Assembly (NCBI RefSeq): GCF_003261055.1
Contig: NZ_CP030073.1
Location: 744,001-808,000 of the forward strand
Length of the DNA stretch: 64,000 nt
Reading direction: 5' to 3'
Source: Streptomyces cadmiisoli
GTDB taxonomy: Bacteria > Actinomycetota > Actinomycetes > Streptomycetales > Streptomycetaceae
Part shown: in pieces, positions 26,850-50,014 of the stretch
How positions within the stretch are numbered: the stretch's first letter is position 1
Layout: each line of letters starts with the position of its first letter
The notes under the pieces: generated by a model
Seen by the model: only the letters and a program-made list of their open reading frames with translations
What the model was told of the DNA's origin: nothing
The model's database searches: none
Position numbers and translations under genes: made by a program

Positions 26850-26928
26850 GGCTCTCCTCTGCCGATGGACGTGGGAGGTGGCGTGCCGGGTTGAGCTTCT
26901 GCCGGCGGGCCGGGTGCAGCGGTACCGG

Positions 26929-28248: not shown

Positions 28249-28313
28249 GGCGACTCCCCCTCTGTGATCGGCTTCCACAACGATGTGCGCCGAGGCAGAA
28301 ACAGCCCGAAAAG

Positions 28314-35002: not shown

Positions 35003-36085
35003 CTACTCGAAGAACTTCAGGCCCCACCCGGTGTCCGTGTTGGGGCCGGGGACGTTGGCGCGGCTGTAGGCGGTGTTGCCCCACCAGCAGAAGGTTCCGG
35101 TGTACCAGTACCGGTTCTGCCAGGAGTACGGCGTCCCCTTCGGTACCGCGTGGAACATCATCGGGAACGTCGGCCCGGCGGGAGGGCTGGTGGCGATGTC
35201 GCCGTCGAGCAGGACGAACGTGTGGTGGCCGGGGCCGTTGACGTGCAGGGTCGGGTCCCAACCCGCCATCATCGTGGCGCGATTGGAACCGAACAGGCAG
35301 CCGTTGGACTTGTACCAGTCCCACACGTACGTCGGGTCGCCGCCGGCCCGCAGCCGCAGATCGGCCAGACAGTACTGGTCGCTCCAGCTGCCGTTGGCGG
35401 AGTACACGATGTGCAGCTGCCCGTTGGGGTCCTTGATGGCCTCGGGTGACTCGTTGATGTACGGGTTGCCGACCACCCGCTCCCAGCTCTCCCGCGGCTG
35501 GGAGATGATGTGGCGCGCGCCGGTCGGTGTGGTCGGGCTGCTCATCCGGGCGATGTAGAGGTTCTGCTCGATGTCGGTGTCGCCGGCCCAGCCGGACCAG
35601 ACGAACCAGCGCTGTCCGTTGAAGGTGAACAGGGTTCCGTCGATGGCCCATTTGTCGTCAGGCAGGGCCAGTTTCGTCTCGGCGGTGTAGCCGCTGTCCG
35701 GGGTGGCCGAGCTGATCACGTACATGCGGTGGGCGGGTCCGCGGCCGGCCGTGAAGTAGATGTAGTAGCGGCCGGTGTCGCGCACGATCTCGGGGGCCCA
35801 GACGTCGCCCAGGTTCCGGGTGTCCGACCAGACCTGCCGGGCGGGTGCCGAGGCCAGGCCGGCCGTCGAGGGGGCCTGCCGCACCGTGATGCCGGCACCG
35901 GTGGACTGCACCGCGATGTATGTGCCGCCGACTCTGATGACGCTCGGGTCCGCGGCCCGCAGCCCGGTCTGCTCCGCCCGGGCGGGTTCGGCGGATGTCA
36001 GCGCCAGTACGGCGGCGAGGACGCCGGACAGCACAAAGGCGGCTGCGCCGGAGAGACGGCGTGAAAGCTGCATGGTCCCGCCCAT
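35003..36085 (-). CDS. Secreted GH43 glycosidase (arabinofuranosidase-like)
   Basis: 360-residue secreted enzyme with a five-bladed beta-propeller. The signal peptide ends near residue 38 (AEPARAEQ). Propeller landmarks are AADPSVIRV (Asp46, base), KWAIDGTLF (Asp149, pKa modulator) and NESPEAI (Glu212, candidate acid). GH43 enzymes release alpha-L-arabinofuranose, xylose or galactofuranose from plant or microbial polymers. The start at 36085 is chosen for GGAGG six bases upstream; an ATG 12 bases further in is possible. It diverges from the PA14-GH2 gene, and an operator-like site lies 39 bases before its ATG. Confidence 0.85.
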   Translation of the reverse strand: MGGTMQLSRRLSGAAAFVLSGVLAAVLALTSAEPARAEQTGLRAADPSVIRVGGTYIAVQSTGAGITVRQAPSTAGLASAPARQVWSDTRNLGDVWAPEIVRDTGRYYIYFTAGRGPAHRMYVISSATPDSGYTAETKLALPDDKWAIDGTLFTFNGQRWFVWSGWAGDTDIEQNLYIARMSSPTTPTGARHIISQPRESWERVVGNPYINESPEAIKDPNGQLHIVYSANGSWSDQYCLADLRLRAGGDPTYVWDWYKSNGCLFGSNRATMMAGWDPTLHVNGPGHHTFVLLDGDIATSPPAGPTFPMMFHAVPKGTPYSWQNRYWYTGTFCWWGNTAYSRANVPGPNTDTGWGLKFFE

Positions 36086-36123
36086 CGTTGGCCTCCGCTG
36101 CGACGCCCCGGCCGCCGGAGATC

Positions 36124-36141
36124 TTTTACATCGATGAAAGA
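36124..36141. promoter_or_regulatory. LacI-type operator, copy 1 (GH43 side)
   Basis: TTTACATCGATGAAAG (core CATCGATG) lies within a near-palindrome 39 bases upstream of the GH43 ATG. It matches three other sites in the window at the consensus TTT-A/C-CA-A/T-CG-A/T-T. Confidence 0.6.
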
Positions 36142-36329
36142 ACGCTCCCACAGCATCGTGAGCGGCGTCGGCATTGTCAACGGCCCGGAGACTGCCGAGG
36201 TCACCCGTGCAAGTGGGGCGCGGGGATCAACTGCCGTCGGTGCGGCCGTCCGTGACGGCGCGGCAGTCCAGTGATGCGAGAGGTCTGGACAGCCACCCGA
36301 GGGCGTGTTGTCATTCCGCTGTCACAGGA

Positions 36330-36345
36330 TTTCCAACGTTGAAAG
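36330..36345. promoter_or_regulatory. LacI-type operator, copy 2 (PA14-GH2 side)
   Basis: TTTCCAACGTTGAAAG (core CAACGTTG) sits 78 bases before the PA14-GH2 ATG, within the 337-base divergent region shared with GH43. It matches copy 1 at 13 of 16 positions. Confidence 0.6.
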
Positions 36346-36422
36346 AGCCGCCTGACCGCACCCGTACCGGCGTTCTCCTGTGACCGGTTCCGGTCGAAGG
36401 CCTTCGTGCGAGGAAAGGTTCG

Positions 36423-39400
36423 ATGACAAGACGACACATCCGCCCACGCGCCAGAGTGTGGGCGCTGCTGACCGCGGCGGCCCTGGTACTGCCTCCGAGC
36501 GGGCTGATGGCCACCGCCTCCGCCGCGGAGCCGGCCGGCCAGGCGTCCGCGCCCGGCGCCGAGCAGTCCGGCGTCGAGGTGCACGGCCTGAAGGGCGAGT
36601 ACTTCAGCATGTCGGCGCCCGGCGCCCGGGACTTCGCCGAGCTCGGTGGCACCCTGCTCGATCCGCAGATCAACTTCTCCGGCCTCACCAGCACCTTCCA
36701 GGAACTGAACGGCAGGACGGAGCACACGACGGCCCGCTGGACGGGGCAGATCGAGGCACCGACCACCGGTGACTACACCTTCTACGCCATCGGCGACAAC
36801 GGCTTCCGCCTCTTCATCGACGGAAAGCCGGTCATCGACCACTGGGAGCCGGACTGGGACCGGGAACAGACCAGCGCCCCGGTGAAGTTGACCGCCGGCC
36901 AGAAGTACGACTTCCGCCTGGAGATGTTCCAGGACTTCGGCGGCTCCAACATGTTCCTGCGCTGGTCCACCCCGGACCAGCCCAAGCAGCTCGTGCCCAT
37001 GTCGGCGTTCACTCCGCCGGAGGGCTTCGAGGTCTACCCGGTAGAACTGTCCGTGGCAGCGGACGGCCGGCGACTGCGGGCCCGGTTCGAGGGCAGGGTC
37101 GGTGACCTCCGGACGGTCAAGGACCACCTGAAGGTCGAAGCCGACACCACGGCCATGCCCCTGAAGTCGGTCACCACCGCCCCCGGCGACCGCAACTCCC
37201 TGCTCGTGACGCTGGCCGAGCCCATCCAGAAGAACCAGCAGGTGCGGGTCACCTACGACGGTGAGGGCGGTCTGACATCGGGCGGCGAGACCGTGCCCAA
37301 GGTCATCCGCTACGCCGAGAACGCCTCCACCCACCGGCTCACCACCACCTGGGGCGACCGGCTCGACGAGAAGAACCCGCTGCCGGAGTACCCGCGCCCG
37401 CAGCAGGTGCGCTCCAAGTGGAAGAACCTCAACGGCTCCTGGCAGTTCAGCGGCGCCGAGGCGGGCGAGCAGCCGGTGTTCGGCACGGACCTCGACGAGA
37501 AGATCGTCGTACCCTTCCCGGTCGAGTCCCAGCTCTCCGGGCTGGAGCGGCACGAAGACCACATGTTCTACCGCAAGCTGGTGAACGTGCCGAAGGACTG
37601 GAAGGTCGGCAAGGACGGCAAGAGCAACCGGCTGAAGCTCAACTTCGGCGCCGTCGACTACCAGGCGCGGGTATGGGTCAACGGCACGCAGGTCGCCCAG
37701 CACACCGGCGGTTACGACGCCTTCAGCGCCGACATCACCGACGCGCTCGAGGGCAGCGGGCCGCAGGAGGTGGTGGTCGCCGTCACCGACACCGGCGGCG
37801 CCGACCAGCCGATGGGCAAGCAGTCCGTCAACCCCGGCGGCATCTTCTACACCCAGTCGTCGGGCATCTGGCAGACCGTCTGGATGGAACCGGTGGCCAC
37901 TACAGCCATCGATAACGTTGTCACCACTCCGGACATCGACACGAGCAGCCTCGCCGTGACGGTGGAGTCGGACAAGGCCTCCGCCGGGGCCCGTGTCGAG
38001 GCTGTCGCCCGCGACAAGCGCGGCAAGGTCGTCGGCAAGGTGAGCGGGCCGGCCAACAAGCAGCTACGGCTGCCGGTGGCCGACCAGCACCTGTGGAGCC
38101 CGGACAACCCCTACCTCTACGACCTCGACGTCCAGCTCACCGACGGCAGGTCGACCGACAAGGTCGGCAGCTACTTCGGTATGCGGAAGATAGGCATCGA
38201 GAAGGTCGGCGGTTTCCAGAAGCTGGTCCTCAACGACAAGCCGATCTTCTCCCTCGCCACGCTCGACCAGGGCTTCTGGCCGGACGGCCTGTACACCGCG
38301 CCCAGCGACGAGGCCCTCGCGTTCGACCTCGAGGCGCACAAGGAACTGGGCTTCAACGCCGTCCGCAAGCACATCAAGGTGGAGTCGCCGCGCTGGTTCT
38401 ACCACGCGGACCGGCTCGGTCTGCTGGTCTGGCAGGACTTCGTCTCCGGGAACATCACCAACGAGACCGGGCGGCGCGCCTTCGTCGACCAGGGCAGGGA
38501 AGTGATGCGGGAGCACCACAACTCGCCCTCCGTGATCAGCTGGATCGTCTTCAACGAGGGCTGGGGCGAGTGGGACCGCACAGAGACCGGCCGCATCGCC
38601 GAGTCCGTCAAGGCCGCCGACCCGTCCCGTGTCGTCAACGCCCACAGCGGTGTCAACTGCTGCAACTCGAAGGGTGACTCGGGCAAGGGCGACATCATCG
38701 ACCACCACGACTACAACAACGAGGACCCGCCGTTCCCCGACCACCGGGCCGCGATGGACGGCGAGCACGGCGGCTTCGTCCTGCGTACGCCGGGCCACAT
38801 GTGGCCGGGTGCCCCGACGGTGATCTACAGCGGTGTCGCCGACAAGGAAGCGCTGACCCGCAGGTACGTGGAGAACACCGAGGAGTTCTACCTCGACCAG
38901 GCCGGGGCCGAGCTGTCCGGTTCGGTCTACACCCAGATCACCGACCTGGAGAACGAGCTCAACGGCCTGTACACGTACGACCGCCGGGAGATCAAGGTCG
39001 ACCCGGTCAGGGTCCGTGAGATCAACCGCAAGGTCGTCGCGGCCGGTGCCGCCGCGGGCGAGCGGCAGCCGCTGAAGGGCGGCGGCCACTGGTCCCTCGA
39101 CGAGGGCAGTGGCACCACCGCGAAGGACGGCGGCCCCAAGGCCAAGTCCCTGACCCTCACCGAGGGCACCACGTGGACGCCCGGCGTCAGCGGTAGCGCC
39201 CTGACGTTCGACGGCCAGGGCCAGCACGCCGAGACCGACGGCCCCGTGCTGGACACCACCGGAAGCTACTCGGTGTCCGCCTGGGTGCGGCTGGACGAAC
39301 TGCCCGGCAACTACGCCACCGCGGTCAGCCAGGACACCCGGCGCCAGGCCAGCCCCTTCTACCTCCAGTACGGCCAGGGCGCCTTCGCCTTCAGCACCCC

Positions 39401-39695
39401 GGGCGGGAACCGCGCCCGGCTGGTGACCGCAGCGGAGAAGGGCCGCTGGTACCACCTCGTCGGCGTCCGCGACAGCACGGACAACACGATCACGCTGTAC
39501 GTCGACGGAAAGCCGGCCGCGACCGTGACCGGTGGCGCGGCCTACCCCAGCACCGGTGCCCTCACCGTCGGCCGCGCCCAGTGGGACGGCAACGACACCG
39601 ACTTCTGGAACGGCTCGGTCGACGAGGTGCACGCCTATGACAAGGCGCTCACCGCCGAGGAGGTGAGCGCGCTCCACACGGACGAGATGCCGTAG
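36423..39695 (+). CDS. Secreted PA14-GH2-LamG glycosidase
   Basis: 1090-residue secreted multidomain glycosidase. Signal peptide to about 35 (ATASAAEPAG); PA14 carbohydrate-binding domain about 50-195; GH2 jelly-roll about 315-490 (LNGSWQF); Ig-like about 495-585; TIM barrel about 590-880 with acid/base Glu712 in VFNEGWGEWD and candidate nucleophile Glu781 in DGEHGGF; C-terminal LamG lectin domain about 895-1085. GH2 covers beta-galactosidase, glucuronidase, arabinofuranosidase and beta-galactofuranosidase activities; the neighbourhood favours a furanosidase. The ATG has GAGGAAAGG upstream. It shares its control region with GH43 and ends at a terminator interrupted by an IS element. Confidence 0.85.
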   Translation: MTRRHIRPRARVWALLTAAALVLPPSGLMATASAAEPAGQASAPGAEQSGVEVHGLKGEYFSMSAPGARDFAELGGTLLDPQINFSGLTSTFQELNGRTEHTTARWTGQIEAPTTGDYTFYAIGDNGFRLFIDGKPVIDHWEPDWDREQTSAPVKLTAGQKYDFRLEMFQDFGGSNMFLRWSTPDQPKQLVPMSAFTPPEGFEVYPVELSVAADGRRLRARFEGRVGDLRTVKDHLKVEADTTAMPLKSVTTAPGDRNSLLVTLAEPIQKNQQVRVTYDGEGGLTSGGETVPKVIRYAENASTHRLTTTWGDRLDEKNPLPEYPRPQQVRSKWKNLNGSWQFSGAEAGEQPVFGTDLDEKIVVPFPVESQLSGLERHEDHMFYRKLVNVPKDWKVGKDGKSNRLKLNFGAVDYQARVWVNGTQVAQHTGGYDAFSADITDALEGSGPQEVVVAVTDTGGADQPMGKQSVNPGGIFYTQSSGIWQTVWMEPVATTAIDNVVTTPDIDTSSLAVTVESDKASAGARVEAVARDKRGKVVGKVSGPANKQLRLPVADQHLWSPDNPYLYDLDVQLTDGRSTDKVGSYFGMRKIGIEKVGGFQKLVLNDKPIFSLATLDQGFWPDGLYTAPSDEALAFDLEAHKELGFNAVRKHIKVESPRWFYHADRLGLLVWQDFVSGNITNETGRRAFVDQGREVMREHHNSPSVISWIVFNEGWGEWDRTETGRIAESVKAADPSRVVNAHSGVNCCNSKGDSGKGDIIDHHDYNNEDPPFPDHRAAMDGEHGGFVLRTPGHMWPGAPTVIYSGVADKEALTRRYVENTEEFYLDQAGAELSGSVYTQITDLENELNGLYTYDRREIKVDPVRVREINRKVVAAGAAAGERQPLKGGGHWSLDEGSGTTAKDGGPKAKSLTLTEGTTWTPGVSGSALTFDGQGQHAETDGPVLDTTGSYSVSAWVRLDELPGNYATAVSQDTRRQASPFYLQYGQGAFAFSTPGGNRARLVTAAEKGRWYHLVGVRDSTDNTITLYVDGKPAATVTGGAAYPSTGALTVGRAQWDGNDTDFWNGSVDEVHAYDKALTAEEVSALHTDEMP

Positions 39696-39708
39696 CGGAG
39701 CAGTGTTG

Positions 39709-39725
39709 AAAGGGCCCCGGCGGGA
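39709..39725. terminator. Left arm of terminator split by IS30 element
   Basis: AAAGGGCCCCGGCGGGA is the exact complement of 41221-41237. Removing the element and one CT repeat restores a 17-bp stem with a loop of about 18 bases, 14 bases after the GH2 stop codon. The original terminator served the two convergent GH2 genes. Confidence 0.8.
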
Positions 39726-39735
39726 AGCACCTTCT

Positions 39736-39758
39736 GTTCTAGCGGTCGTTGCAACACT
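39736..39758. repeat. IS30 left terminal inverted repeat
   Basis: Begins GTTCTAGCGGTC and ends GCAACACT. It matches the right repeat at 21 of 23 positions, the two mismatches lying in the middle. Confidence 0.85.
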
Positions 39759-39765
39759 GCCTGGC

Positions 39766-41181
39766 TCAGGTGGTGAGTAGATCACGTAGACGCTCGGCTG
39801 GTGTATCCCAGCCGAGCGTCTTGCGTGGACGGCCGTTGAGCTCCTGGGCGACGTGTTCGAGGTCTTCGGGACTGTGCAGGCTCAGGTCGGTGCCCTTGGG
39901 GAAGTACTGCCGCAACAGGCCGTTGGTGTTCTCGTTCGAGCCGCGCTGCCAGGGCGAGGCAGGATCGCAGAAGTAGACCGGCATCCCCGTGGCCATGGTG
40001 AAGTGCTTGTGACGTGCCATCTCGGTTCCCTGGTCCCAGGTGAGCGAGCCCCGTAGGTGCGGGGGCAGGTTCTGGACGGTGCGGACCAGGCCGTCACGGA
40101 CTGCTGCGGCGTCGTGAGAGCTGCCGGGCAGGTGGACCAGCATGGTGTAGCGAGTGGTCCGCTCGACCAGCGTCCCGATGGCGGACCGGCCGTAGGCGCC
40201 GACGATGAGGTCGCCTTCCCAGTGACCCGGCACCGCCCGGTCTTCGACCTCGGGGGGACGGCTGCTGATCATCACCATCGGGTCGTTGAACCGGGGGGTG
40301 CGACGACCCGGGTCGCGTCGCGGCCTGCGGCGCGTGCGACCCGTGCGGACGGCTGCCTGGACTTCCCGCTTCAGACCGCCCCTGGCCTGCAAATACAGTG
40401 CCTGATAGATCGTCTCCACGCTCACCCGCATGTCCTGGTCGTCGGGATGGCTCTTGGTCAGAGCGTGGCAGATCTGTTCCGGAGACCACCGTCTGCGCAG
40501 ACCGTCCTGGACGAAGTTGCGCAACGGGCTCTCGCCCACGAGTTTGCGTTGCTTCGGCCGGGGCCTGCGTGCGGCGGCGACCCTGTGTGCCGCGTAGGGG
40601 AGGTAGCCGGCGGTCCCCGAGTTGTTCCGCAGCTCGCGTGAGATGGTGCTGGCCGGGCGTCCCAGGGCGCGTCCGATGGCCCGCAGGGACTGGCCGGCGG
40701 CGCGGAGGTCGCGTATCCGCTCCCGCTCCGAGAGGGACAGGAAGCGGGGGTGCAGCTTCTTCTCAAGAGACTTGAGGCTCACTACTGGCCTGACCGGCGT
40801 CTTCATGATCACACCGGACATCGTGACGGTTCCCGTCGTGTAGTTCACACGTCGGCCGTCGGGGTAGACCCGACCATTGCCGGACTTCCGGACGCCGTAG
40901 TCCCAGTCCTTGGCCGTGCGCACGTGCACTCCGACCCGTTCGGCAGCCTCCCGTCGCGAGACGCCCCGGGCTCGCAGCTCGACGTACTCCTCGCGCCGCG
41001 GATGCCCCAGATGCCCAGTGGTCATGCCCGCCTGACGGGCCAGCGTGAACGCTGTATTCAGGTTCAGCCCCAGCTCACGGGCCACGGGAGACACGCTCCC
41101 CACAACATCCAGCCGATCGAGGAAACGCCTCTTCAACGCCGGATCGAGCCTCTTACCGCCCACGGTCCTCGCAACTCCCAT
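39766..41181 (-). CDS. IS30-family transposase
   Basis: 471-residue DDE transposase. Two N-terminal helix-turn-helix regions (about 15-95 and 150-190, the latter LRAIGRALGRPASTISREL, the IS30 signature HTH) bind the ends. The catalytic core has Asp324 in HWEGDLIVG, Asp383 in TWDQGTEMA and Glu417 in RGSNENTNGLLRQYFPKG. It is longer than E. coli IS30 transposase (383) through an extra N-terminal DNA-binding part. The frame is intact, so it is probably functional. Confidence 0.95.
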   Translation of the reverse strand: MGVARTVGGKRLDPALKRRFLDRLDVVGSVSPVARELGLNLNTAFTLARQAGMTTGHLGHPRREEYVELRARGVSRREAAERVGVHVRTAKDWDYGVRKSGNGRVYPDGRRVNYTTGTVTMSGVIMKTPVRPVVSLKSLEKKLHPRFLSLSERERIRDLRAAGQSLRAIGRALGRPASTISRELRNNSGTAGYLPYAAHRVAAARRPRPKQRKLVGESPLRNFVQDGLRRRWSPEQICHALTKSHPDDQDMRVSVETIYQALYLQARGGLKREVQAAVRTGRTRRRPRRDPGRRTPRFNDPMVMISSRPPEVEDRAVPGHWEGDLIVGAYGRSAIGTLVERTTRYTMLVHLPGSSHDAAAVRDGLVRTVQNLPPHLRGSLTWDQGTEMARHKHFTMATGMPVYFCDPASPWQRGSNENTNGLLRQYFPKGTDLSLHSPEDLEHVAQELNGRPRKTLGWDTPAERLRDLLTT

Positions 41182-41189
41182 CGATCATG

Positions 41190-41212
41190 AGTGTTGCGAG
41201 GACCGCTAGAAC
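41190..41212. repeat. IS30 right terminal inverted repeat
   Basis: Reads AGTGTTGC at its inner edge and GACCGCTAGAAC at its outer edge; partner of 39736-39758. The transposase start codon is only nine bases inside it. Confidence 0.85.
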
Positions 41213-41220
41213 CTAAGCAC

Positions 41221-41237
41221 TCCCGCCGGGGCCCTTT
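41221..41237. terminator. Right arm of terminator split by IS30 element
   Basis: TCCCGCCGGGGCCCTTT followed by one more T. It pairs perfectly with 39709-39725 across the insertion. On the minus strand it would have ended the GH2-AbfB transcript. Confidence 0.8.
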
Positions 41238-41389
41238 TCGTGTGTCCTCGCACCGGCGAGACCGCGCCGCATCGTCGAGGTGACGCGCGGCCGATGGGGC
41301 GGTCCCGGGGCAATGACCATCCGGTGGGCCCCAAAGGGTCCGTCCGCCGCCGGCACGTACAGCGGTCGACGGCCGGCAACTGGCAGTGG

Positions 41390-41413
41390 CCACAGCCACA
41401 GCCACAGCCACAG
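41390..41413. repeat. Four tandem CCACAG hexamers
   Basis: A short perfect hexamer tandem in the 266-base gap between the IS element and the GH2-AbfB gene. Otherwise that gap holds only the terminator arm. No function is apparent. Confidence 0.6.
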
Positions 41414-41503
41414 CGCACGATGCCGTCGAACTGGGGCACGCCGAAGCGGCGGCGCGTCATCCGACACGCCGCCGCCCGCTCGGCTCTGTGCCTTACGCCC
41501 GGG

Positions 41504-43870
41504 TCACGGGGCCCACGGAGCCTCCACCGTCCATGTGGTGTCTTCCGTGAAGAGGGCGGGGTTGTCCCAGGTGTGCGTGCCGCCCGGCGTGGCGAGCCAC
41601 AACTGGGCGTCGTAGTGGCGCAGATACTGCTCCGGGAAGTTGTACGCCGACAGCCGCACTCCCCCGTTCGCGCCGCGGACCGGGCAGAAGGTGGCGTCGG
41701 CCCGGAACAGATCGCCGCTGCCGGCCTCCTTGTAGACGCGGTACTCGCGGTGTCGCAGGTACTCACCGGGGTAGTTGCGCGACTCGAAGCTGTAGCAGGA
41801 GCTGTTGGCGAGGCCGGCCACGATCCTCCACGTGGCGTCGTTCTTCAGCAGGGCGTCGCTGGCGCTGCCGACGACCTCCGTGAAGGCTGCGCCGTCCTTG
41901 TGGCGGATGTACCGGTCGGTGAGGCCGGGGGTGGTCACGCGCAGCGACCTGTATTGGCCGGTGGGCAGTGTGAGGGGCGCCGTCGAGCCGCGGGAGGCGT
42001 CGACGAGGGCGCGGTTGGCGGCCCTGATGCGGGCCTCGTCGACCTTGACGACCTGACGGTCGTAGGTGAGCAGGCCGTTGGCCTCGTTCTCGACGTCGGT
42101 GATCTCGGTGTACACGGACGCGGACAGGCCGCGCGGCATGCGTACCTCGCGGATCGCGTCCAGCAGGCCGGTCAGGCGGTTGTTCAGGTGGGCCGCGCTG
42201 GGCTGGTCCTCGTAGCTGAAGCCGCCCCCGGGGTACCACTCGTGGCCGGCGACCTTGAGACCCAGGCCGCCGAACTCACCCAGGACGGCGGCCCGGGTGG
42301 CGCTGGGCACGGTGGTGCCCGGACCGACGTAGACATGGTGGTCGACGATGTCGCCGTTGCCGCCGTCGACGGCACCGCAGCAGTTGACGCCGCTCATGTT
42401 GTTGACCAGCCGGGAGGGGTCGTAGGCCTTCACCTCGGTGGCGATACGGGCCTGGTCGTACTGGCCCCAGCCCTCGTTCTGGTTGACCCACATGATCAGT
42501 GAGGGTGAGCTGCGGTGCTGGTCGATGACACGGTCGTACTCGGCCTCCCACTGGGTGCGGGCGGCGGCGTCGGGGGTGCGCAGGTCCATGGAGGGCATGT
42601 CCTGCCAGACCAGCAGCCCGAGCCGGTCGGCCCAGTAGAACCAGCGCTGCGGCTCGACCTTGATGTGCTTGCGGACCATGTTGAAGCCCAGGTCCTTGTG
42701 CTTCTGGAGGTCGTGGCGGAGGGCCGCGTCGGTGGGCGCGGTGTAGATGCCGTCCGGCCAGTAGCCCTGGTCGAGCGTGCCGGTCTGGAAGACGAACTGC
42801 CCGTTGAGGACCGGGCGCAGGAGTCCGTCGACGCGGGCCAGTCCGACGGAACGCATACCGGTGTAGCTGCCGACGGAATCGACGGTCGTACCGCCGGAAA
42901 GCAGGTCGGCCCGCACGTCGTAGAGGAACGGGTCTTCGGGGGTCCACAGGCGCGGGTTCGGGACCGGGACGGTGAACTCGGCGCCGACCGGGCCGGTGGC
43001 CGTGCCGACCGTGCTGCCGCCGGTGGAGACGGTGACGCGGGCCTGGTGGCCGTTGGTGCCGGCGCCCCGGACGGTGACCTTGAGGCGGTTGTTCGCCAGG
43101 TCGGGGACCATGTCCAGACGCGTGATGTGCGCGGGGGCCGTGGGTTCGAGCCACACCGTCTGCCAGATGCCGGACGCGGCCGTGTAGAAGATGCCGCCGC
43201 CGGGGTGCGGGGCGACGTCGCGGATCCGCTGCTTGCCGACCGCCTGGCCACCGGTCTCGGTCGGGTCCCACACGGAGACGACGATCGTGTTGGTGCCGCC
43301 GTTGAGGAGGTCCGTGATGTCGTGGGAGAAGGCGTCGAAGCCTCCGCTGTGCGCGGCACCCGCCTGGCGGCCGTTGACCCACACGGTGGTACGCCAGTCG
43401 CTGGCGCCGAAGTGCAGTTGGACTCGGCGGCCGTTCCAGCCGGCAGGGACGGTGAAGGTGCGCTTGTACCAGAGCTTGTCGTTCTGGGTGATCCGGCGCT
43501 GGATGCCGGAGAGCGCGGACTCGGCGACGAACGGGACGCGGATCTGCTCCGTGAATGTCGCGGGCTGGCCGGCGTCGGCCGAGGTGACGGCGAAGTCCCA
43601 GATGCCGTTGAGATTCGCCCAGTCGGGGCGGGTGAGCTGAGGGCGCGGATATTCCGGGAGCGGGGTGGTGGTGGGGACCTCGTTGGTCCAGGGAGTGGTC
43701 ATCGGGGACGGTTTGGGTGTCCACGCCTGGGGCGCGGCCGTCGCCGTGCCGGTGGCGGTGAGGGCCGTACCGCCGACCAGGGTCAGGGCGGCGAGAGCGG
43801 TGGTGGCCCACCGCGCCCGCCGTCTGAGCCAGGTACCCGGCCGGCGTAGTGCGGGTGACATGGGACGCAT
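41504..43870 (-). CDS. Secreted GH2 glycosidase with AbfB (CBM42) domain
   Basis: 788-residue secreted enzyme. Signal peptide to about 46 (ATGTATAAPQ); GH2 jelly-roll about 70-250; Ig-like about 255-350; TIM barrel about 355-640 with acid/base Glu466 in NQNEGWGQY and nucleophile candidate Glu532 in VLGEFGGLG; C-terminal AbfB domain about 650-785 (SFESRNYPGEYLRH, LSAYNFPEQYLRHYD). AbfB modules bind arabinofuranose side chains, which points the activity to arabinofuranosides or related furanosides. GGAG lies five bases before the ATG. It follows the importer genes on the same strand after a hairpin, so it is probably the last gene of that operon. Confidence 0.88.
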   Translation of the reverse strand: MRPMSPALRRPGTWLRRRARWATTALAALTLVGGTALTATGTATAAPQAWTPKPSPMTTPWTNEVPTTTPLPEYPRPQLTRPDWANLNGIWDFAVTSADAGQPATFTEQIRVPFVAESALSGIQRRITQNDKLWYKRTFTVPAGWNGRRVQLHFGASDWRTTVWVNGRQAGAAHSGGFDAFSHDITDLLNGGTNTIVVSVWDPTETGGQAVGKQRIRDVAPHPGGGIFYTAASGIWQTVWLEPTAPAHITRLDMVPDLANNRLKVTVRGAGTNGHQARVTVSTGGSTVGTATGPVGAEFTVPVPNPRLWTPEDPFLYDVRADLLSGGTTVDSVGSYTGMRSVGLARVDGLLRPVLNGQFVFQTGTLDQGYWPDGIYTAPTDAALRHDLQKHKDLGFNMVRKHIKVEPQRWFYWADRLGLLVWQDMPSMDLRTPDAAARTQWEAEYDRVIDQHRSSPSLIMWVNQNEGWGQYDQARIATEVKAYDPSRLVNNMSGVNCCGAVDGGNGDIVDHHVYVGPGTTVPSATRAAVLGEFGGLGLKVAGHEWYPGGGFSYEDQPSAAHLNNRLTGLLDAIREVRMPRGLSASVYTEITDVENEANGLLTYDRQVVKVDEARIRAANRALVDASRGSTAPLTLPTGQYRSLRVTTPGLTDRYIRHKDGAAFTEVVGSASDALLKNDATWRIVAGLANSSCYSFESRNYPGEYLRHREYRVYKEAGSGDLFRADATFCPVRGANGGVRLSAYNFPEQYLRHYDAQLWLATPGGTHTWDNPALFTEDTTWTVEAPWAP

Positions 43871-43915
43871 CGTGACTCCTTCACTAGTGGGGGTGCGGAG
43901 ACGTGCGTGTGCGGA

Positions 43916-43946
43916 AGGCGGCCGGGACCTGAGGTTCCGGCCGCCT
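43916..43946. terminator. Intercistronic hairpin between permease and GH2
   Basis: AGGCGGCCGG/CCGGCCGCCT with inner ACC/GGT pairs gives a nearly loopless stem of about 14 bp. It lies between the second permease and the GH2-AbfB gene. Only 45 bases separate it from the GH2 start, too few for an obvious separate promoter, so a leaky terminator or RNA-processing element is likely. Confidence 0.6.
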
Positions 43947-44002
43947 GGATCCGGACGCGGCAGACGCGATCGCGAGTTGCACGCCTGCCGTGTCCGGGGC
44001 TC

Positions 44003-45037
44003 TCACATCAGCTGCCGTCTGCGGCCCAGCCAGGTCTGGGCGACGACGACGACAGCCAGGAAGGCACCGCTGACGACCTGCTGGTACGAGGAGTCGAGGG
44101 AGCCGATCTGGTTGATGACGTTCTGGATCACCTTCAGCAGCAGGACGCCGACCAGCGAGCCGCTGACGTAGCCGAGGCCGCCGGTCAGCAGGGTGCCGCC
44201 GATGACGACGGCGGAGATGGCCTCCAGTTCCATGCCGTTGCCGAGGATGGTGACGCCGGAGGCGAGCCAGGCGGCGTTGAGCGCGCCGGCCAGCCCGGCC
44301 AGCAGCCCGGACAGCGTGTAGACCAGGATCTTGGTGCGGGCGACGGGGGCGCCCATCAGGGCCGCCGCGTCCTCGTTGCCGCCGACGGCGTAGACGTGCT
44401 GTCCGAAGCGGGTGCGGCGCAGCACCAGGGCTCCGGCGGCGAACAGCGCCAGCGTGATCCACACGGGGTTGCCGAGGCCGAGGGTGGTGCCCTGGCCCAG
44501 TTCGGCAAGGAGGGAGCCCTTGCCGATCAGGAAGGTGTCCGCGCCCTCGTCCGTGATGGCCAGCATCAGACCGCGTGCGCCGAGCATGGCGGCCAGCGTG
44601 ACGATGAAGGGGGCCAGGCGGGACCGGGCCACGAGCAGCCCGTTGACGACGCCGATCAGCCCGCACACCGCCAGCGGCAGGAGCAGCGCCACCAGGGTGC
44701 CGTGGCGCGATCCCCAGGCGGCCAGGACACCGCCGAGCGCGAAGAGGGAACCGACCGACAGGTCGATGCCACCGGTGATGATCACGAAGGTCATGCCGAG
44801 GGCGACGATGGCCAGGAACGCCGAACTGGTCCCCATGTTGCCGATGTTGTCGCCGGTGGCGAAGGAGTCGAAGCTGAACGAGGCCACCAGGCAGACGATC
44901 ATCAGCACGGCCAGCGCGCCGTGCTGCTGGACGAGGGCGCTGATCCGCTCGGAGCGGGCGGAGCCGACCGGTTCGGTCTCCTCCGACGGCTGCTTGCTCG
45001 CGGTGGTCACGGGTGCGTCCGTTCTCGTGGCGGTCAT
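44003..45037 (-). CDS. ABC sugar permease (YjfF/RbsC type)
   Basis: 344-residue permease of the CUT2 (ribose/furanose) class. A cytoplasmic tail of about 35 residues precedes eight to ten predicted helices. The family segments MTFVIITGGIDLSVGSLFAL and VVIGGTLLTGGLGYVSGSLVG are present. The start is ATG at 45037, fixed by the ATGA overlap with the first permease; longer open sequence upstream is shadow of that gene. As second of two unlike permeases it occupies the position of YjfF in the E. coli galactofuranose importer. Confidence 0.9.
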   Translation of the reverse strand: MTATRTDAPVTTASKQPSEETEPVGSARSERISALVQQHGALAVLMIVCLVASFSFDSFATGDNIGNMGTSSAFLAIVALGMTFVIITGGIDLSVGSLFALGGVLAAWGSRHGTLVALLLPLAVCGLIGVVNGLLVARSRLAPFIVTLAAMLGARGLMLAITDEGADTFLIGKGSLLAELGQGTTLGLGNPVWITLALFAAGALVLRRTRFGQHVYAVGGNEDAAALMGAPVARTKILVYTLSGLLAGLAGALNAAWLASGVTILGNGMELEAISAVVIGGTLLTGGLGYVSGSLVGVLLLKVIQNVINQIGSLDSSYQQVVSGAFLAVVVVAQTWLGRRRQLM

Positions 45038-45996
45038 CGCTTCCCCCGTCCCCGTGCCGCGTACACGGCGGCGACGATCACTATGGCCTGGGCGATCTGG
45101 GTCCACGAGGGCGGCAGATCGTGCTTGATGAGCGTGGCCGTCAGCAGCTGGATCAGGACGGCTCCCGCCACGGTGCCGGCGATGTTGACCCGGCCGCCGG
45201 TCAGCGGGGTGCCGCCGACCACGACCGCGGTGATGGCGGACAGTTCCATCAAGTTGCCCAGGGAGGTCGGGTCGCTCGCCTGGAGGCGGGCGGTGGCGAG
45301 CACGCCCGCCACGGCGGCGAGCAGCGCGCAGACGACGTACACGATGATCAGTACGCGGCGTACGGGCAGTCCGGCGAGCTGGGCCGCGGGGCGGCTGTCG
45401 CCGATGGCGAGCAGTTGGCGCCCGAAGGTGGTGCGGCGGACCACGAAGGCGAGCAGCAGCGCCAGGGCGGTGGCGATCAGGATCAGATACGGGATGCCGA
45501 GGACGTCGCCGGAGCCGAGGGAGGCGAGCGACGGGTTGCGCAGGTCCTCCAGTTGCGGGAGCAGGACCAGCGCGAGGCCCCGGCCGCCGACCATGAGCGC
45601 CAGGGTCGCCACGATCGGCTGTACCCCGACGAACGCGACCAGTGCCCCGTTGGCCAGGCCGACTCCGGCCGCGAACACCGCCACCACCAGCAGGGCCGGC
45701 AGCAGCCCGTAGCCGAGGTAGAGGGCGGTGACGGAGGCGGCCAGTGCCATCACGGCGCCGACCGAGAGGTCGACGCCCTCGGTGCCGATGACCAGGGCCA
45801 TGCCGAGGGCGACGATGATGACCGGGGCGACCTGGACGGCCTGGGTGCGGAAGTTCTCCGCGGACATGAAGTGCGGGGTGATGACGATGTTGACGACGAG
45901 CAGGACCGCGACTCCGGCGTAGACGCCGTACGTCTGGAGCCATTGCAGGACGCGGGCCTTGTCCAGTGGGGCGGTGCGCAGGGTGGCTTCAGCCAT
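45034..45996 (-). CDS. ABC sugar permease (YtfT/RbsC type)
   Basis: 320-residue CUT2 permease with eight to ten predicted helices. It has LGMALVIGTEGVDLSVGAVM and AITAVVVGGTPLTGGRVNIA. The first overlaps the ATPase stop by eight bases. Two different permeases, rather than a homodimer as in RbsC, are typical of the YtfQRT-YjfF furanose importer and a few xylose or arabinose systems. Confidence 0.9.
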   Translation of the reverse strand: MAEATLRTAPLDKARVLQWLQTYGVYAGVAVLLVVNIVITPHFMSAENFRTQAVQVAPVIIVALGMALVIGTEGVDLSVGAVMALAASVTALYLGYGLLPALLVVAVFAAGVGLANGALVAFVGVQPIVATLALMVGGRGLALVLLPQLEDLRNPSLASLGSGDVLGIPYLILIATALALLLAFVVRRTTFGRQLLAIGDSRPAAQLAGLPVRRVLIIVYVVCALLAAVAGVLATARLQASDPTSLGNLMELSAITAVVVGGTPLTGGRVNIAGTVAGAVLIQLLTATLIKHDLPPSWTQIAQAIVIVAAVYAARGRGKR

Positions 45997-47551
45997 CGGT
46001 CGCCGCCTCCTTGGCCACGGCGGGCGCGGGGGCGTCCCCGGCGATGGTCCGCATCAGCTTGTCCTCGGTGACGTCGTCGCCGGTCAGCTCGCCGACCACG
46101 GCACCGTCCTTCAGTACGACCACGCGGTCGGACCCTTCGATCAGTTCCTCCAGGTCGGAGGAGATGAGCAGGACGCCCAGGCCGTCGGCGGCCAGTTCGT
46201 CGACGAGCTTTTGCACCTCGGCCTTGGCGCCGACGTCGATGCCGCGGGTGGGCTCGTCCAGCAGCAGCACCTTGGGGTTCATCGCGAGCCAGCGGGCGAG
46301 CAGCACCTTCTGCTGGTTGCCGCCGGAGAGTTCGCCGACCTTCTGATGCGGGGAGGACGCCTTGATCCGCAGTCGCTCGACGAAGGTGTCCACGATGCTG
46401 TCGACGCGGGCCTCGGAGACGAGGCCGAAGCGGGACAGCCGGGGCAGGACGGCGAGCGCGATGTTCTCGCGGACCGACAGGCCGGGGACGATGCCCTCGC
46501 TCTTGCGGTCCTCGGGCAGCAGGCTGACGCCCGCCCGGATGGCGGCCGGTGTCGAGCCGCCGCGCAGAGGGACGCCGGCCACGGTCACACGGCCCGAACG
46601 CACCGGCAGGGCACCGGAGATGGCCTTCGCCGTCTCGGTGCGTCCGGAGCCGAGCAGACCGCCCAGCCCGACGACCTCACCGGGCCGGATGCTCAGGCTG
46701 ACCCCGTGCAGCTGGTGCGGGACCGTCAGTTCCTCGGCCTCCAGCACCGGTCGGGTGCCTGCCGCTGCGTGGTCGCCGGTGAACTTCGTCAGGCCCTCCT
46801 TGCGGACCTCGCCGAGGTCCCGGCCGAGCATGGTCGACACCAGGGTGAGCCGGTCGAGGTCGGCCAGCCGGCCGTGGTGGACGCGACGGCCGTCGCGCAG
46901 CACGGTGACGGTGCTGCACACGGCGTACAGCTCGTCCAGGCGGTGGCTGACGTAGACGACCGCGATGCCCTCGTCACGCAGGCGCCGGATCACCGAGAAC
47001 AGCGTCTCCACCTCGCGTGGTTCGAGGGAGGAGGTCGGTTCGTCCATGACGACGATCCGCGCGTCGGTGGCCACGGCGCGGGCGAGGGCCACCATCTGCT
47101 GGGCGCCGACGCCGAGGCTGCGCAGCGGGCGGCGGACGTCCACCCGGACGCCGTAGGTGCGCAGGATCTCCTCGGCCTGGCGGTTCATGCGGGCGACGTC
47201 GAGGACTCCGATGCGGTTGCGGGGCTCGCGGCCCAGGAAGAGGTTGCGGGCGACGCTGAGCAGCGGGATCAGGTTGACCTCTTGGTAGATGGTCGAGATC
47301 CCCGCCTTCTGCGCGTCCAGGGGGGTGGCGAAGGAGACCTTGCGGCCCTGGAAGGTGATCTCGCCGGCGTCGGGCCGGTACACGCCGGTCAGGAGCTTGA
47401 TGAGGGTCGACTTGCCGGCGCCGTTCTCGCCGATGAGTGCGTGGACCTCACCCGCGTGCAGGGTGAGGTCCACGTCGTCCAGGGCCCGGACGCCGGGGAA
47501 GGTCTTGCTCAGGCCGCGGACGGCGAGGACTTCGGCGGGTGGTGCCGCCAC
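45989..47551 (-). CDS. Sugar ABC importer ATPase (YtfR/RbsA type)
   Basis: 520-residue protein with two fused ABC domains, as in CUT2 importers. The first half has Walker A GENGAGKSTL (about 37-46) and VVMDEPTSSLEP. The second half has a degenerate Walker A (GGLLGSGRTETAKA), an intact signature LSGGNQQKVLLARWL and LLDEPTRGIDVG. It energises the two permeases. A hairpin separates it from the binding-protein gene upstream, which would keep its level below that of the binding protein. Confidence 0.92.
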   Translation of the reverse strand: MAAPPAEVLAVRGLSKTFPGVRALDDVDLTLHAGEVHALIGENGAGKSTLIKLLTGVYRPDAGEITFQGRKVSFATPLDAQKAGISTIYQEVNLIPLLSVARNLFLGREPRNRIGVLDVARMNRQAEEILRTYGVRVDVRRPLRSLGVGAQQMVALARAVATDARIVVMDEPTSSLEPREVETLFSVIRRLRDEGIAVVYVSHRLDELYAVCSTVTVLRDGRRVHHGRLADLDRLTLVSTMLGRDLGEVRKEGLTKFTGDHAAAGTRPVLEAEELTVPHQLHGVSLSIRPGEVVGLGGLLGSGRTETAKAISGALPVRSGRVTVAGVPLRGGSTPAAIRAGVSLLPEDRKSEGIVPGLSVRENIALAVLPRLSRFGLVSEARVDSIVDTFVERLRIKASSPHQKVGELSGGNQQKVLLARWLAMNPKVLLLDEPTRGIDVGAKAEVQKLVDELAADGLGVLLISSDLEELIEGSDRVVVLKDGAVVGELTGDDVTEDKLMRTIAGDAPAPAVAKEAATDG

Positions 47552-47589
47552 CTGTGCCTCCAGAAGGAATGGGTCGAGGGAGGACGGTG

Positions 47590-47616
47590 GGGGCCCGGAG
47601 CGGACGTCCGGGCCCC
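47590..47616. terminator. Intercistronic hairpin after binding-protein gene
   Basis: GGGGCCCGGA/TCCGGGCCCC, perfect 10 bp with a 7-base loop, starts nine bases after the binding-protein stop codon. Such hairpins between binding-protein and ATPase genes commonly stabilise or partly terminate the first message, raising binding-protein output. Confidence 0.65.
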
Positions 47617-47624
47617 TGGGGTGA

Positions 47625-48719
47625 TCAGTAGGCCTTGCCGATGTCCGTCTTCGCGTTGTCCGCGGTGTAGGCGCCGTCCTCGATGATGACGTCCTGCGCG
47701 ACTTCCTCGCCCTTGGTGAAGGTGTCGAGGGTCTGGAACGCCAGCGGCCCGAAGCGCGGGTTGGACTCGATGACGCCGCTGATCCAGCCGTCGACGATGC
47801 CCTGGACGGCGTTGCGGGTGCCGTCGACCGTGACGATCTTGACGTCGCCCGGCTTCTTGCCGGCGCCCTTGAGCGCGGCCACCGCGCCCAGGCCCATCTC
47901 GTCGTTCTCCGCGTAGATGCCCTTGATGCCGGGCTTCGACTGGATGAGCTGCTCGGTGACCTGCTGGCCCTTCTCGCGGGCGAAGTCGCCGGTCTGCTCG
48001 AACACCACCTTCAGATCGGGCGCCTTCTCGGCGATCCGGTCCTTGAAGCCCTTGGTGCGTTCGGTGGTGACGTTGTTGCCGGCCGAGCCGAGCAGGATCG
48101 CGACCTCGCCCTTGCCGCCCGTGGCCTCGATCATCTGGTCGGCGGCGCGCCGCCCCTGCTCGACGAAGTCCGAGGCGATGAAAGAGACGTAGTCCTTGCA
48201 GGCGGTGGCGTTGATCTTGCGGTCGATCGTGACGATCGGGACCTTCTTGGCGGCGGCGGCCTGCAGCACCGGGTCCCAGCCGTCGGAGTTGAGCGGGGCG
48301 ATGACCAGCAGGTCGGCGCCCTTCGCGAGCAGGTCCTGGACGTCGCTGATCTGCTTGGAGAACTGCGACTGGGCGTTGGCCGTCAGCAGCTTGACACCCC
48401 GCTTCTCGGCCTCGTCCTTGATGGACTGGGTCTCCGCGATGCGGAACGGGTTGGCCTCCTTCTCCGACTGGGAGAAGCCGACGGTCGCGTTCTCGAGGTC
48501 CAGCTTCTGGCCGCCGTAGGCGTCGACGGTGCAGGTCTTGCTGCCCGGCTTGGGCGTGGCGACCTTCTGCTCGGCGCCGGCGGCGGCCGGGGACTTGCTG
48601 CCGGTCGCCGCGTCGTCCTCCGACTTGGCGCAGGCGGTGGCGGTCAGGGCCACCGCGGCGGCCAGGGCCACGACCGTGGGACGGCTGAGGAGGCGAGGAC
48701 GGTGAGTTGTGCGCTGCAT
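47625..48719 (-). CDS. Furanose-type ABC substrate-binding lipoprotein (YtfQ-like)
   Basis: 364-residue binding lipoprotein of the RbsB/YtfQ class with lipobox LTATAC (Cys30). The mature part keeps the YtfQ-style opening VGFSQSEKEANPFRIAETQS and ligand-loop segments LLVIAPLNSDGWDPVL, IDRKINA, YAENDEMGLGAV and TVDGTRNAVQ. In E. coli YtfQ binds galactofuranose; the ligand here is inferred from that resemblance and from the furanosidase neighbours. It is the first gene of a five-gene unit (binding protein, ATPase, two permeases, GH2). An operator-like site lies 111 bases before its ATG. Confidence 0.9.
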   Translation of the reverse strand: MQRTTHRPRLLSRPTVVALAAAVALTATACAKSEDDAATGSKSPAAAGAEQKVATPKPGSKTCTVDAYGGQKLDLENATVGFSQSEKEANPFRIAETQSIKDEAEKRGVKLLTANAQSQFSKQISDVQDLLAKGADLLVIAPLNSDGWDPVLQAAAAKKVPIVTIDRKINATACKDYVSFIASDFVEQGRRAADQMIEATGGKGEVAILLGSAGNNVTTERTKGFKDRIAEKAPDLKVVFEQTGDFAREKGQQVTEQLIQSKPGIKGIYAENDEMGLGAVAALKGAGKKPGDVKIVTVDGTRNAVQGIVDGWISGVIESNPRFGPLAFQTLDTFTKGEEVAQDVIIEDGAYTADNAKTDIGKAY

Positions 48720-48829
48720 GGTGACCCCGATCCGGGCGACGCTGAAAGGGAACTGGGGGCGAGCTGGTCAAGCAGGAACAGTGCTCTCCCCCCGGCGGAA
48801 ATCGTTGTCAGGTCCGCCGCAATGAGGTT

Positions 48830-48845
48830 TTTACATCGTTGGAAG
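48830..48845. promoter_or_regulatory. LacI-type operator, copy 3 (importer operon)
   Basis: TTTACATCGTTGGAAG lies 111 bases upstream of the YtfQ-like gene. It keeps the TTTACATCG left half of copy 1 and the CG-T-TG centre of copy 2. Confidence 0.6.
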
Positions 48846-48897
48846 GATGCTGTAAACCCCCTCTGCACTCGCGCACTTGGACTACGCCGACGCCCAA

Positions 48898-48981
48898 TTC
48901 CCCGCAACGGGCGCCGAATTCCGCCGTACGGACGCGCTCTTCCGCCGTACGGACGCCGGGTCCCGCCGTACGGACGCCGAG
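48898..48981. repeat. 21-bp tandem array with CCGTACGG palindromes
   Basis: Three near-identical 21-mers (starts 48919, 48940, 48961), each containing CCGCCGTACGGACGC, and one degenerate copy before them at 48898. The array lies just after the lacI stop and 180-260 bases upstream of the importer start. The period equals two helical turns or seven codons (FRRTDAx if read on the plus strand). Confidence 0.7.
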
Positions 48982-49006
48982 CCCTCCCTCTGCAGGAACG
49001 TCCGCC

Positions 49007-50014
49007 CTACCGTCGCCCCACCGTGCTCTCGCGCTCCACCAGCGTGTAGTCCGCCCGGATCCGCCGGGGTTCGGGTACCGCACCACCGAGCCGGGCCAGC
49101 ACGGACTCGACCGCGAGCCTGCCGATGGCTTCCTTGTCGGGCGACACGGATGTGAGGGTCACCGCGCCGAAACGCCCCTCGACGACGTCGTCGAAACCGA
49201 CGACCGCGATGTCCTCGGGAATCCGCAGGCCCCGCTCGTGCAGCACCCGCATCGCGCCGATCGCCATGGGGTCGTTGTAGGCGAACACCGCGTCGGGACG
49301 CCGCCCGCTGTCCAGGATGCGGCTCATGGCCGCCGCGCCGTCCGCGTGCCCCCAGCCGTCCGTCTCCGCCACGAGCCCGTCGTCGGCCGGGAGTCCCGCG
49401 GCGCCCAACTCCTCACGCCAGCCGCGCACACGCAGTTGCGCCGGCTCACTGCGGGCGCGCCGGGCGCCGATGAAGGCCACCTCGCGGCGCCCCAGCCCGA
49501 CCAGGTGCCGTACCGCGGCGCGGGCCGCGTCGACGTTGTCGATGGCGATGTGGTCGTACGGCAGGTCGTACTCCCGCTCGCCCAGCAGCACCAGCGGCAC
49601 CTGCTCCGAGCGGTGGCGCAGATCCTCGGTCTCCAACTCGATCGGGCTGAGGATGAGCCCGTCGATGACGCGTGCCCGGAAACCCTGACTGACCAGCACC
49701 TCCTGTTCACGGCGGCCGCCGGTGTGGTCCAGCAGCACGATGTAGTCGTGCGCGGCGGCGGCGTTGATGACGGCCGCGGTCAGTTCGGCGAAGTAGGGGT
49801 TGCCGAGTTCCGGCAGGGCCAGCGCGATGATGCCGGTGCGGCCCTTGCGGAGGTGTCGGGCGGTCAGATTGGGCTGGTAGCCGAGCGCGTCGATGGACCG
49901 CTGGACGCGATCGCGCATGGCCGGTGTGACGTGCTGGTAGTTGTTCACCACGTTGGAGACGGTCTTGATGGAGACCCCAGCGTGCGCGGCGACGTCCTTG
50001 AGGCTGACCCGCAA
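49007..50014 (-). CDS. LacI family transcriptional regulator
   Basis: 335-residue repressor. The helix-turn-helix (SLKDVAAHAGVSIKTVSNVV, 4-23) and hinge (YQPNLTARHLRKG) precede a sugar-sensing domain with VVGFDDVVEGRFGAVTLTSV. It lies directly upstream of, and in the same direction as, the importer operon. An operator-like site 92 bases before its ATG suggests autoregulation. The same motif before the importer, GH43 and PA14-GH2 genes makes this protein the likely repressor of all of them, with a furanose as inducer. Confidence 0.9.
   Translation of the reverse strand: MRVSLKDVAAHAGVSIKTVSNVVNNYQHVTPAMRDRVQRSIDALGYQPNLTARHLRKGRTGIIALALPELGNPYFAELTAAVINAAAAHDYIVLLDHTGGRREQEVLVSQGFRARVIDGLILSPIELETEDLRHRSEQVPLVLLGEREYDLPYDHIAIDNVDAARAAVRHLVGLGRREVAFIGARRARSEPAQLRVRGWREELGAAGLPADDGLVAETDGWGHADGAAAMSRILDSGRRPDAVFAYNDPMAIGAMRVLHERGLRIPEDIAVVGFDDVVEGRFGAVTLTSVSPDKEAIGRLAVESVLARLGGAVPEPRRIRADYTLVERESTVGRR

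Follow-up and report, generated by a model that had tools for sequence, protein, structure and literature searches.

A predicted D-galactofuranose release-and-capture regulon beside an arabinan-type gene in Streptomyces cadmiisoli

Positions 35003 to 50014 of a 64,000-nucleotide stretch of Streptomyces cadmiisoli DNA hold genes for three secreted glycoside hydrolases, an ABC-type sugar importer and a LacI-family regulator, and we consider here the sugar that this locus is likely to handle. The whole stretch, referred to as the window, covers 744001-808000 of contig 1 in a genome of 10.24 Mb on two contigs. Across the locus the genes run in the order GH43 (-), PA14-GH2-LamG (+), IS30 transposase (-), GH2-AbfB (-), two permeases (-), double ATPase (-), sugar-binding lipoprotein (SBP, -) and LacI (-). 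Galactofuranose (Galf) is an unusual five-ring form of galactose that is present in fungal cell walls; arabinofuranose (Araf) is the other sugar in question, and Galf-ase and Araf-ase denote the matching furanosidases. The genes and predicted operators are as follows.

35003..36085, minus strand: GH43, secreted, probable alpha-L-arabinofuranosidase-like; a neighbour, probably of a different regulon (Pfam, 116 bits)
36125..36140: predicted operator of CATCGATG type, 5' of GH43 (pattern match)
36330..36345: predicted operator of CAACGTTG type, 5' of PA14-GH2 (pattern match)
36423..39695, plus strand: PA14-GH2-LamG, secreted, probable beta-D-galactofuranosidase of PA14 type (PA14, GH2 and Laminin_G_3 domains; 501 bits to 9j6n)
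39766-41181, minus strand: IS30-family transposase gene, outside the system (NCBIfam transpos_IS30, 297 bits)
41504..43870, minus strand: GH2-AbfB, secreted, by likeness a beta-D-galactofuranosidase of ORF1110 (JHA19) type (AbfB, 155 bits; 1257 bits to PDB 9j6n)
43871..44002, minus strand: hairpin-rich gap between permease 2 and GH2-AbfB (RNA z-score -4.9)
44003..45037, minus strand: permease 2, YjfF-like, BPD_transp_2; its start overlaps the end of permease 1 (translations, NCBIfam)
45034..45996, minus strand: permease 1, YtfT-like, BPD_transp_2 (Pfam, NCBIfam)
45989..47551, minus strand: double ABC ATPase, YtfR-like (Pfam, NCBIfam)
47625..48719, minus strand: SBP, GafA/YtfQ-like, outside the canonical GafA clade, Peripla_BP_4 (Pfam, NCBIfam, tree)
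48830..48845: predicted operator 5' of the importer operon, centre CAACGATG (pattern match)
49007..50014, minus strand: LacI-family regulator, proposed sensor of the regulon (Pfam LacI and Peripla_BP_3)
50106..50121: predicted operator 5' of lacI, centre TAACGTTG (pattern match)

Pfam recovered all the genes of the original prediction (GH43, PA14-GH2-LamG, GH2-AbfB, the permeases, the ATPase, the SBP and LacI) and its coordinates are correct; the IS30 transposase gene, flanked by the 3' ends of both GH2 genes, was absent from it.

Central to the interpretation are the two GH2 proteins. GH2-AbfB is identical at 530 of 591 aligned residues to PDB 9j6n, the beta-D-galactofuranosidase ORF1110 of Streptomyces sp. 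JHA19, and the best structure match of PA14-GH2-LamG is likewise 9j6n (267 of 575 identical). Passages of PMC4560423 describe 18 mutated Asp/Glu residues; 17 could be placed on the chain with one numbering offset, D336 failing, and all 17 are conserved in both window enzymes, including D423 and E464. GH2-AbfB is thus an orthologue of ORF1110 with D423 and E464 in place, while the second protein combines an N-terminal PA14 domain with GH2 domains that carry identical active-site residues. NCBIfam gives the GH2 proteins no galactofuranosidase name, its matches lying far under the cut-offs. ORF1110 is reported in the accessible portion of PMC4560423 to cleave pNP-beta-D-Galf and not pNP-alpha-L-Araf, to possess Galf-ase and no Araf-ase activity, and to free galactose from fungal galactomannan. 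Actinobacterial Galf-ases fall into two types, AbfB and PA14 (PMC5391426), of which the window has one each, and furanosidase activity within GH2 is described as specific to GH2_18 and GH2_19 in excerpts of PMC12243196. Paired GH2 genes have a precedent, because the Discussion of PMC4560423 already reports a second secreted GH2 gene adjoining ORF1110, with joint expression or action proposed by its authors. Overall, by sequence comparison, the cleavage of Galf by the GH2 enzymes is a well-supported prediction.

The association of these enzymes with the importer was followed across loci (L numbers) and genomes (G numbers, G000 being that of the window). One hundred stretches were compared, or 101 counting the window, comprising the 80 best-matching of 431 relatives (79 bear the title Streptomyces, the other is Actinobacteria bacterium OV320) and 20 of the 29 sampled genomes with SBP identity of 70% or less. 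By SBP identity to the window they form group A (84-93%; 43 stretches other than the window), group B (75-84%; 37) and group C (49-68%; 20). A GH2 furanosidase gene is present in 94 of the 100 (A 40/43, B 37/37, C 17/20), and the six without one are two contigs of less than 5 kb, L073, L114, L129 and L122, where the GH2 gene lies 9.7 kb off. Three layouts recur. GH2-AbfB may stand directly 3' of permease 2 on the same strand, with PA14-GH2 mostly convergent (A 19/43, B 1/37); a relative of PA14-GH2 of about 49% identity may stand on the opposite strand upstream of lacI, as is typical of group B; or the GH2 genes may lie beyond the SBP gene with lacI 3' of the permeases, as is typical of group C. 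In the window, the IS30 gene (39766-41181) disrupts neither of the two convergent GH2 genes, and it has no match at E 1e-20 across the stretches of the 80 best relatives.

The same association holds at the level of whole genomes. Of 199 Streptomyces genomes, 63 have the SBP and 111 have the GH2 core, with both in 62, the SBP only in 1, GH2 only in 49 and neither in 87, so that 62/63 SBP genomes have the GH2 core vs 49/136 of the others (Fisher P 1.7e-19, uncorrected for kinship). At least 57 of the 63 SBP genes have a GH2 gene within 9.7 kb on the same contig among the matches listed, on which these distances rest; G075 has a GH2 match whose position is not among them. Outside Streptomyces, the comparison took in all 14 window-type SBP matches, plus 6 of 26 at 34-40% identity. 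Six of the ten loci with an SBP at least 56% identical carry a GH2 furanosidase gene and four do not, and among four more distant loci (SBP 47-50%) only L151 has weak partial GH2 matches. None of six stretches with a canonical GafA has a GH2 furanosidase gene, save for a 120-residue match in L157. The idea of the original prediction that furanose release and capture are coupled is supported.

Moreover, the genes share predicted operators. The pattern TTNCAACGTTGNAAA, allowing up to three mismatches, gives 10 strand matches representing five places in the window vs 1.83 expected, namely 36125 (GH43), 36330 (PA14-GH2), 48830 (importer), 50106 (lacI) and 49944 (within the 5' part of lacI). For counts across loci, a site had to score at least 12 of 16 upstream of the gene, a level reached by 5.1% of 2000 random background stretches drawn from the same loci, true sites included; stretches with fewer than 200 bases upstream were dropped (two for PA14-GH2, one for the SBP), and nine LacI paralogues (<60%) were removed from 107 rows, leaving orthologues alone. 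Such sites precede the SBP gene in 100/100 rows, PA14-GH2 in 35/36 (A 29/29, C 6/7) and lacI in 74/98 (A 38/41, B 36/37, C 0/20), with controls upstream of the ATPase (0/101) and of permease 2 (0/98) empty. In group C lacI follows the permeases and has no operator-like site before it in 20/20. Sites upstream of GH2-AbfB are rare (1/34 at threshold; CAACGTTG type in 0/22 group A rows), as expected if this gene follows the importer, although the hairpins in the gap preceding it suggest that its expression may be tuned separately. The centre of the SBP operator is CAACGATG in 80/81 loci of groups A and B and TAACGTTG in 19/20 of group C, where the PA14-GH2 sites have weaker centres such as TATCGTTG and CAACGATG. 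The importer site CAACGATG is a hybrid, one mismatch away from the CAACGTTG-like and from the CATCGATG pattern alike. Shared control of the importer and the Galf-ases is well supported by this comparison as a prediction.

A search of the whole genome with TTNCAACGTTGNAA, allowing one mismatch, returned three places (control pattern 0), these being the promoter region of GH43 and PA14-GH2, the importer, and position 737750, which is 6.2 kb left of the window and about 64 bases upstream of a gene for a secreted GH127 protein. This protein has GH127 catalytic and middle domains with ricin-type lectin domains and lies far from the members of known structure (83 bits to 4qjy). Its orthologues occur in 43 of the 199 Streptomyces genomes, 38 of them with the SBP and 25 within 15 kb of it. 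Among the best 30 of 44 matches, which were the loci read (L199 being incomplete at its end), 20 have the operator upstream and none at the downstream control, and the operator goes with the SBP (20/25 loci with it vs 0/5 without, P 0.0018). The gene was found via the operator alone and gene order elsewhere agrees; it is therefore a candidate member of the regulon.

The GH43 gene appears to belong elsewhere. Its protein lies nearest the exo-1,5-alpha-L-arabinofuranosidase 3akf, a fold close to characterised Araf-ases, and translation probably begins from the ATG at 36085 or 36073 instead of in the longer GTG frame, because the operator-like site falls within the latter. In group A all nine GH43 loci have the operator centre CATCGATG, and six of the nine also have the CAACGTTG site of the divergent neighbour. 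A count of nine out of nine above the operator threshold does not support membership in the Galf regulon, all nine centres being CATCGATG. In 30 genome loci, CATCGATG is found in 13 (two with CAACGTTG too), one-base variants in 4, CAACGTTG alone in 2 and no such site in 11. Four places in this genome match the CATCGATG pattern when one mismatch is allowed (control 1), namely GH43, the importer promoter (the hybrid), a LacI/CUT1/GH2 locus and a gene for a GH93 exo-arabinanase homologue. Given that GH43 has this operator in common with arabinan-type genes, it more likely serves arabinan than the Galf regulon, and the proposal that it forms one unit with the importer and GH2 genes is not well supported; the hybrid importer site leaves room for cross-control.

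It is possible, if doubtful, that GH43 does belong to the Galf regulon, its substrates being galactofuranosides or side chains that obstruct them. In the window and some relatives GH43 and PA14-GH2 have a promoter region in common, in which the CAACGTTG site would be within reach of both genes in those six group A loci; the SBP occurs in 25 of the 29 genomes with GH43 (P 5.7e-11), and the four genome loci with CAACGTTG, alone or alongside CATCGATG, point the same way. On the other hand, CATCGATG is the centre throughout group A and precedes GH43 also in G118 and G136, both of which lack the SBP, and operator presence does not differ with the SBP (12/26 with it vs 1/4 without, P 0.61).

The last two of these places, and one more locus in the window, are as follows. 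L172 (414-6850; G000 contig 1, 8.270-8.284 Mb) encodes LacI, a CUT1 importer and a furanosidase-like GH2 protein; a CATCGATG operator separates lacI from the importer genes. This GH2 protein has no signal peptide evident in its sequence, and its nearest structure is 7xyr, given as an uncharacterised GH2_19 in PMC12243196; the arrangement looks like import of furanose oligosaccharides followed by intracellular cleavage. L236 (8333-9571; G000 contig 1, about 8.413 Mb) holds the gene for the GH93 homologue with the operator type of GH43. Within the window, 23008-28278 includes a second GH127 gene (655 aa; 307 bits to the beta-L-arabinofuranosidase 4qjy) beside CUT1 importer genes and is a separate beta-L-arabinofuranoside locus.

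The importer itself has the gene order of E. coli ytfQ-ytfR-ytfT-yjfF, the gene set and order of GafABCD, and the best NCBIfam model for each part is the corresponding one (SBP to YtfQ, 198 bits; ATPase to YtfR, 583; permease 1 to YtfT, 177; permease 2 to YjfF, 236). Among solved structures the SBP is closest to GafA of M. smegmatis (193 bits), Shewanella (180) and E. coli (2vk2, 166), followed by the ribose-binding protein 2ioy (158). In a tree built from 49 binding proteins, all nine canonical GafA cluster together with full support (100/100) and the window type falls outside this cluster; the window-type proteins do not resolve as a single clade, and placements are unsure because of long branches. 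Six genomes of a wider sample of 296 from the class (G087, G225, G251, G281, G321, G463) have the window-type SBP together with a second one at 36-40% identity, which is of the canonical GafA type in G087 and G251, the two read. Some automated names read galactofuranose transport (P0139, P0234) and others ribose. A structure comparison for the ligand was dropped, likeness to GafA and to RbsB not separating (Z within 1).

Cys30 of the SBP is invariant in 21/21 aligned proteins. In YtfQ precursor numbering, Arg38, Asp111, Arg167, Phe191, Asn220 and Asp248 are kept in all 100 window-type SBPs (the window and 99 loci), as is Glu41, while Asn-Phe replaces Gly-Trp of YtfQ at 36-37, with Phe for Trp37 in 100/100. 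Arg38 is present in GafA and the window-type SBPs, and absent from E. coli RbsB, MglB, AlsB and AraF. Passages of PMC10191376 attribute to the Asp111-Arg38 pair of YtfQ the space that accommodates Galf, and suggest that a Phe (Phe40) possibly excludes Galf from the Araf-only GafA of Shewanella; we take this Phe40 to align with YtfQ Glu41, which is Glu in the window-type SBPs. The conserved YtfQ residues, the Asp111-Arg38 pair among them, would therefore make the pocket compatible with Galf.

Enzyme orthology, linkage and operator pattern are direct results of the computation, and they lead us to read the locus as a D-galactofuranose release-and-capture regulon beside an arabinan gene, with a probability of about 0.72. 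The two secreted GH2 enzymes, of AbfB and PA14 type, would release terminal beta-D-Galf residues from polymers, fungal galactomannan being an example; the freed monosaccharide, before or after isomerisation, would be captured by the GafA/YtfQ-related SBP and imported via the YtfR/YtfT/YjfF-like ABC pump. We infer that LacI, bound at CAACGTTG-like operators, represses the importer, the Galf-ases and its own gene until the sugar releases it, and that in this strain the GH127-lectin enzyme, encoded outside the window, joins the regulon. An aldose 1-epimerase of GalM type, encoded in related loci, would help convert the imported ring form into galactopyranose for the Leloir pathway and may speed ring exchange. 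A GalM homologue is found in 22/101 stretches (C 18/20, for example at L122 3831, near lacI; A 3/44; B 1/37), and in one locus outside Streptomyces (L152) GalK and GalT lie beside the importer. D-Galf is the most likely imported sugar because the GH2 enzymes group with characterised Galf-ases, the AbfB type with one having no Araf-ase activity. Together with the GalM homologues and the absence of araA, araB and araD from all 101 Streptomyces stretches, window included (E 1e-12), this grouping narrows the choice between arabinofuranosides and galactofuranosides that the original prediction had left.

A few results weigh against this view. Every importer part misses its NCBIfam equivalog cut-off (YtfQ 198/510, YtfR 583/850, YtfT 177/535, YjfF 236/363), so that of the likeness to YtfQRT-YjfF claimed earlier the parts, the order and the best models stand, and the importer is, on sequence, no straightforward GafABCD orthologue. 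PMC10191376 describes, for the GafA site, a Trp over the furanose ring and a Phe beneath it; in the window type only Phe191 is retained and Trp37 is replaced by Phe, the mapping to 37 and 191 being ours. The window itself has no GalM match. Finally, a 47% SBP relative with its importer (L154) adjoins araA, araB and araD, and sugar preference across the wider group may therefore vary.

A bolder extension of the D-Galf reading, which we regard as unlikely, is a modified furanose pocket (Asn-Phe-Arg) served by Galf-active regulon enzymes of more than one fold, with the GH127-lectin protein acting on a 1,2-cis furanoside such as alpha-D-galactofuranose and GalM speeding exchange between Galf and galactopyranose. 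Known GH127 enzymes cut beta-L-arabinofuranose, the stereochemical counterpart of alpha-D-galactofuranose; a literature search found no alpha-D-galactofuranosidase.

Scavenging of L-Araf from arabinan or arabinoxylan, with GH43 and the GH2 enzymes releasing it and the importer an arabinose-type GafABCD, appears improbable. It would suit the likeness of GH43 to 3akf and the araABD genes beside the L154 relative. AbfB domains bind arabinofuranose side chains, which also fits. Further, two studied GafA proteins prefer L-arabinose to galactose and one binds only L-arabinose, according to parts of PMC10191376. Nevertheless, the AbfB-GH2 type is without Araf-ase activity in passages of PMC4560423, araA/B/D are missing from the window-type Streptomyces stretches vs araBAD in 3/6 of the canonical GafA stretches, GH43 is under another operator in most loci that have one, and the Galf-excluding Phe40 of Shewanella is Glu here, if its alignment to Glu41 holds. 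Least probable is import of galactopyranose, ribose or another monosaccharide after the furanose opens to pyranose, which would explain the Galf-ase linkage, the near-equal SBP scores for 2ioy and 2vk2 with the fold tie, and Asn-Phe at 36-37 as in RbsB, but runs against the Arg38 that RbsB, MglB, AlsB and AraF of E. coli lack, the Arg38-Asp111 pair that makes room for Galf in YtfQ (passages of PMC10191376) and two unlike permeases best matching YtfT and YjfF.

If the D-Galf reading is true, Galf-ases feed a dedicated importer under one repressor. Such a system would be a predicted route by which fungal galactomannan yields galactose, and it would supply a natural switch responsive to Galf, with a sensor protein, for a sugar absent from mammals. 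Reports of Galf-specific Galf-ases in Streptomyces go back to 2015, and a 2020 review calls their overall contribution to Galf metabolism unclear (PMC7278926); the locus is a testable home for this enzyme class. A 2023 survey of Gaf importers gives, in the portion available, no direct link to D-galactose catabolic genes (PMC10191376), and our literature search, among its best-ranked matches listed, held no description of a Galf-ase-linked importer. The parts are known; Galf-specific Galf-ases with a GafA-related importer under one LacI operator were not found described as a combination, which we regard as a variant of known systems.

Several of these systems bear direct comparison. ORF1110 (GH2_18, PDB 9j6m/9j6n) resembles GH2-AbfB in the catalytic chain, the 17 Asp/Glu residues, the C-terminal AbfB and the second GH2 gene nearby, whereas in the window the GH2-AbfB gene comes after importer genes; a word search of the main text of PMC4560423 found nothing on an importer beside ORF1110. 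The PA14-type enzyme ORF0643 of Streptomyces sp. JHA26 has N-terminal PA14 and GH2 domains as well (PMC5391426), while the window protein, likened to it by domain architecture, adds LamG. With the L-arabinan regulons (GH43, GH93, CUT1) the locus has in common the CATCGATG operator of its GH43, as at the GH93 homologue and the CUT1 locus, but PA14-GH2, lacI and the importer bear CAACGTTG-like sites, that of the importer being the hybrid. GafABCD/YtfQRT-YjfF of E. coli, Shewanella and M. smegmatis is matched in its four parts, their identical order, the best NCBIfam models and Arg38-Asp111; the window differs in parts that fall under the equivalog cut-offs, in Asn36 and Phe37 and in an SBP outside the canonical clade, and window-type loci are linked to Galf-ases and GalM, not to araBAD.

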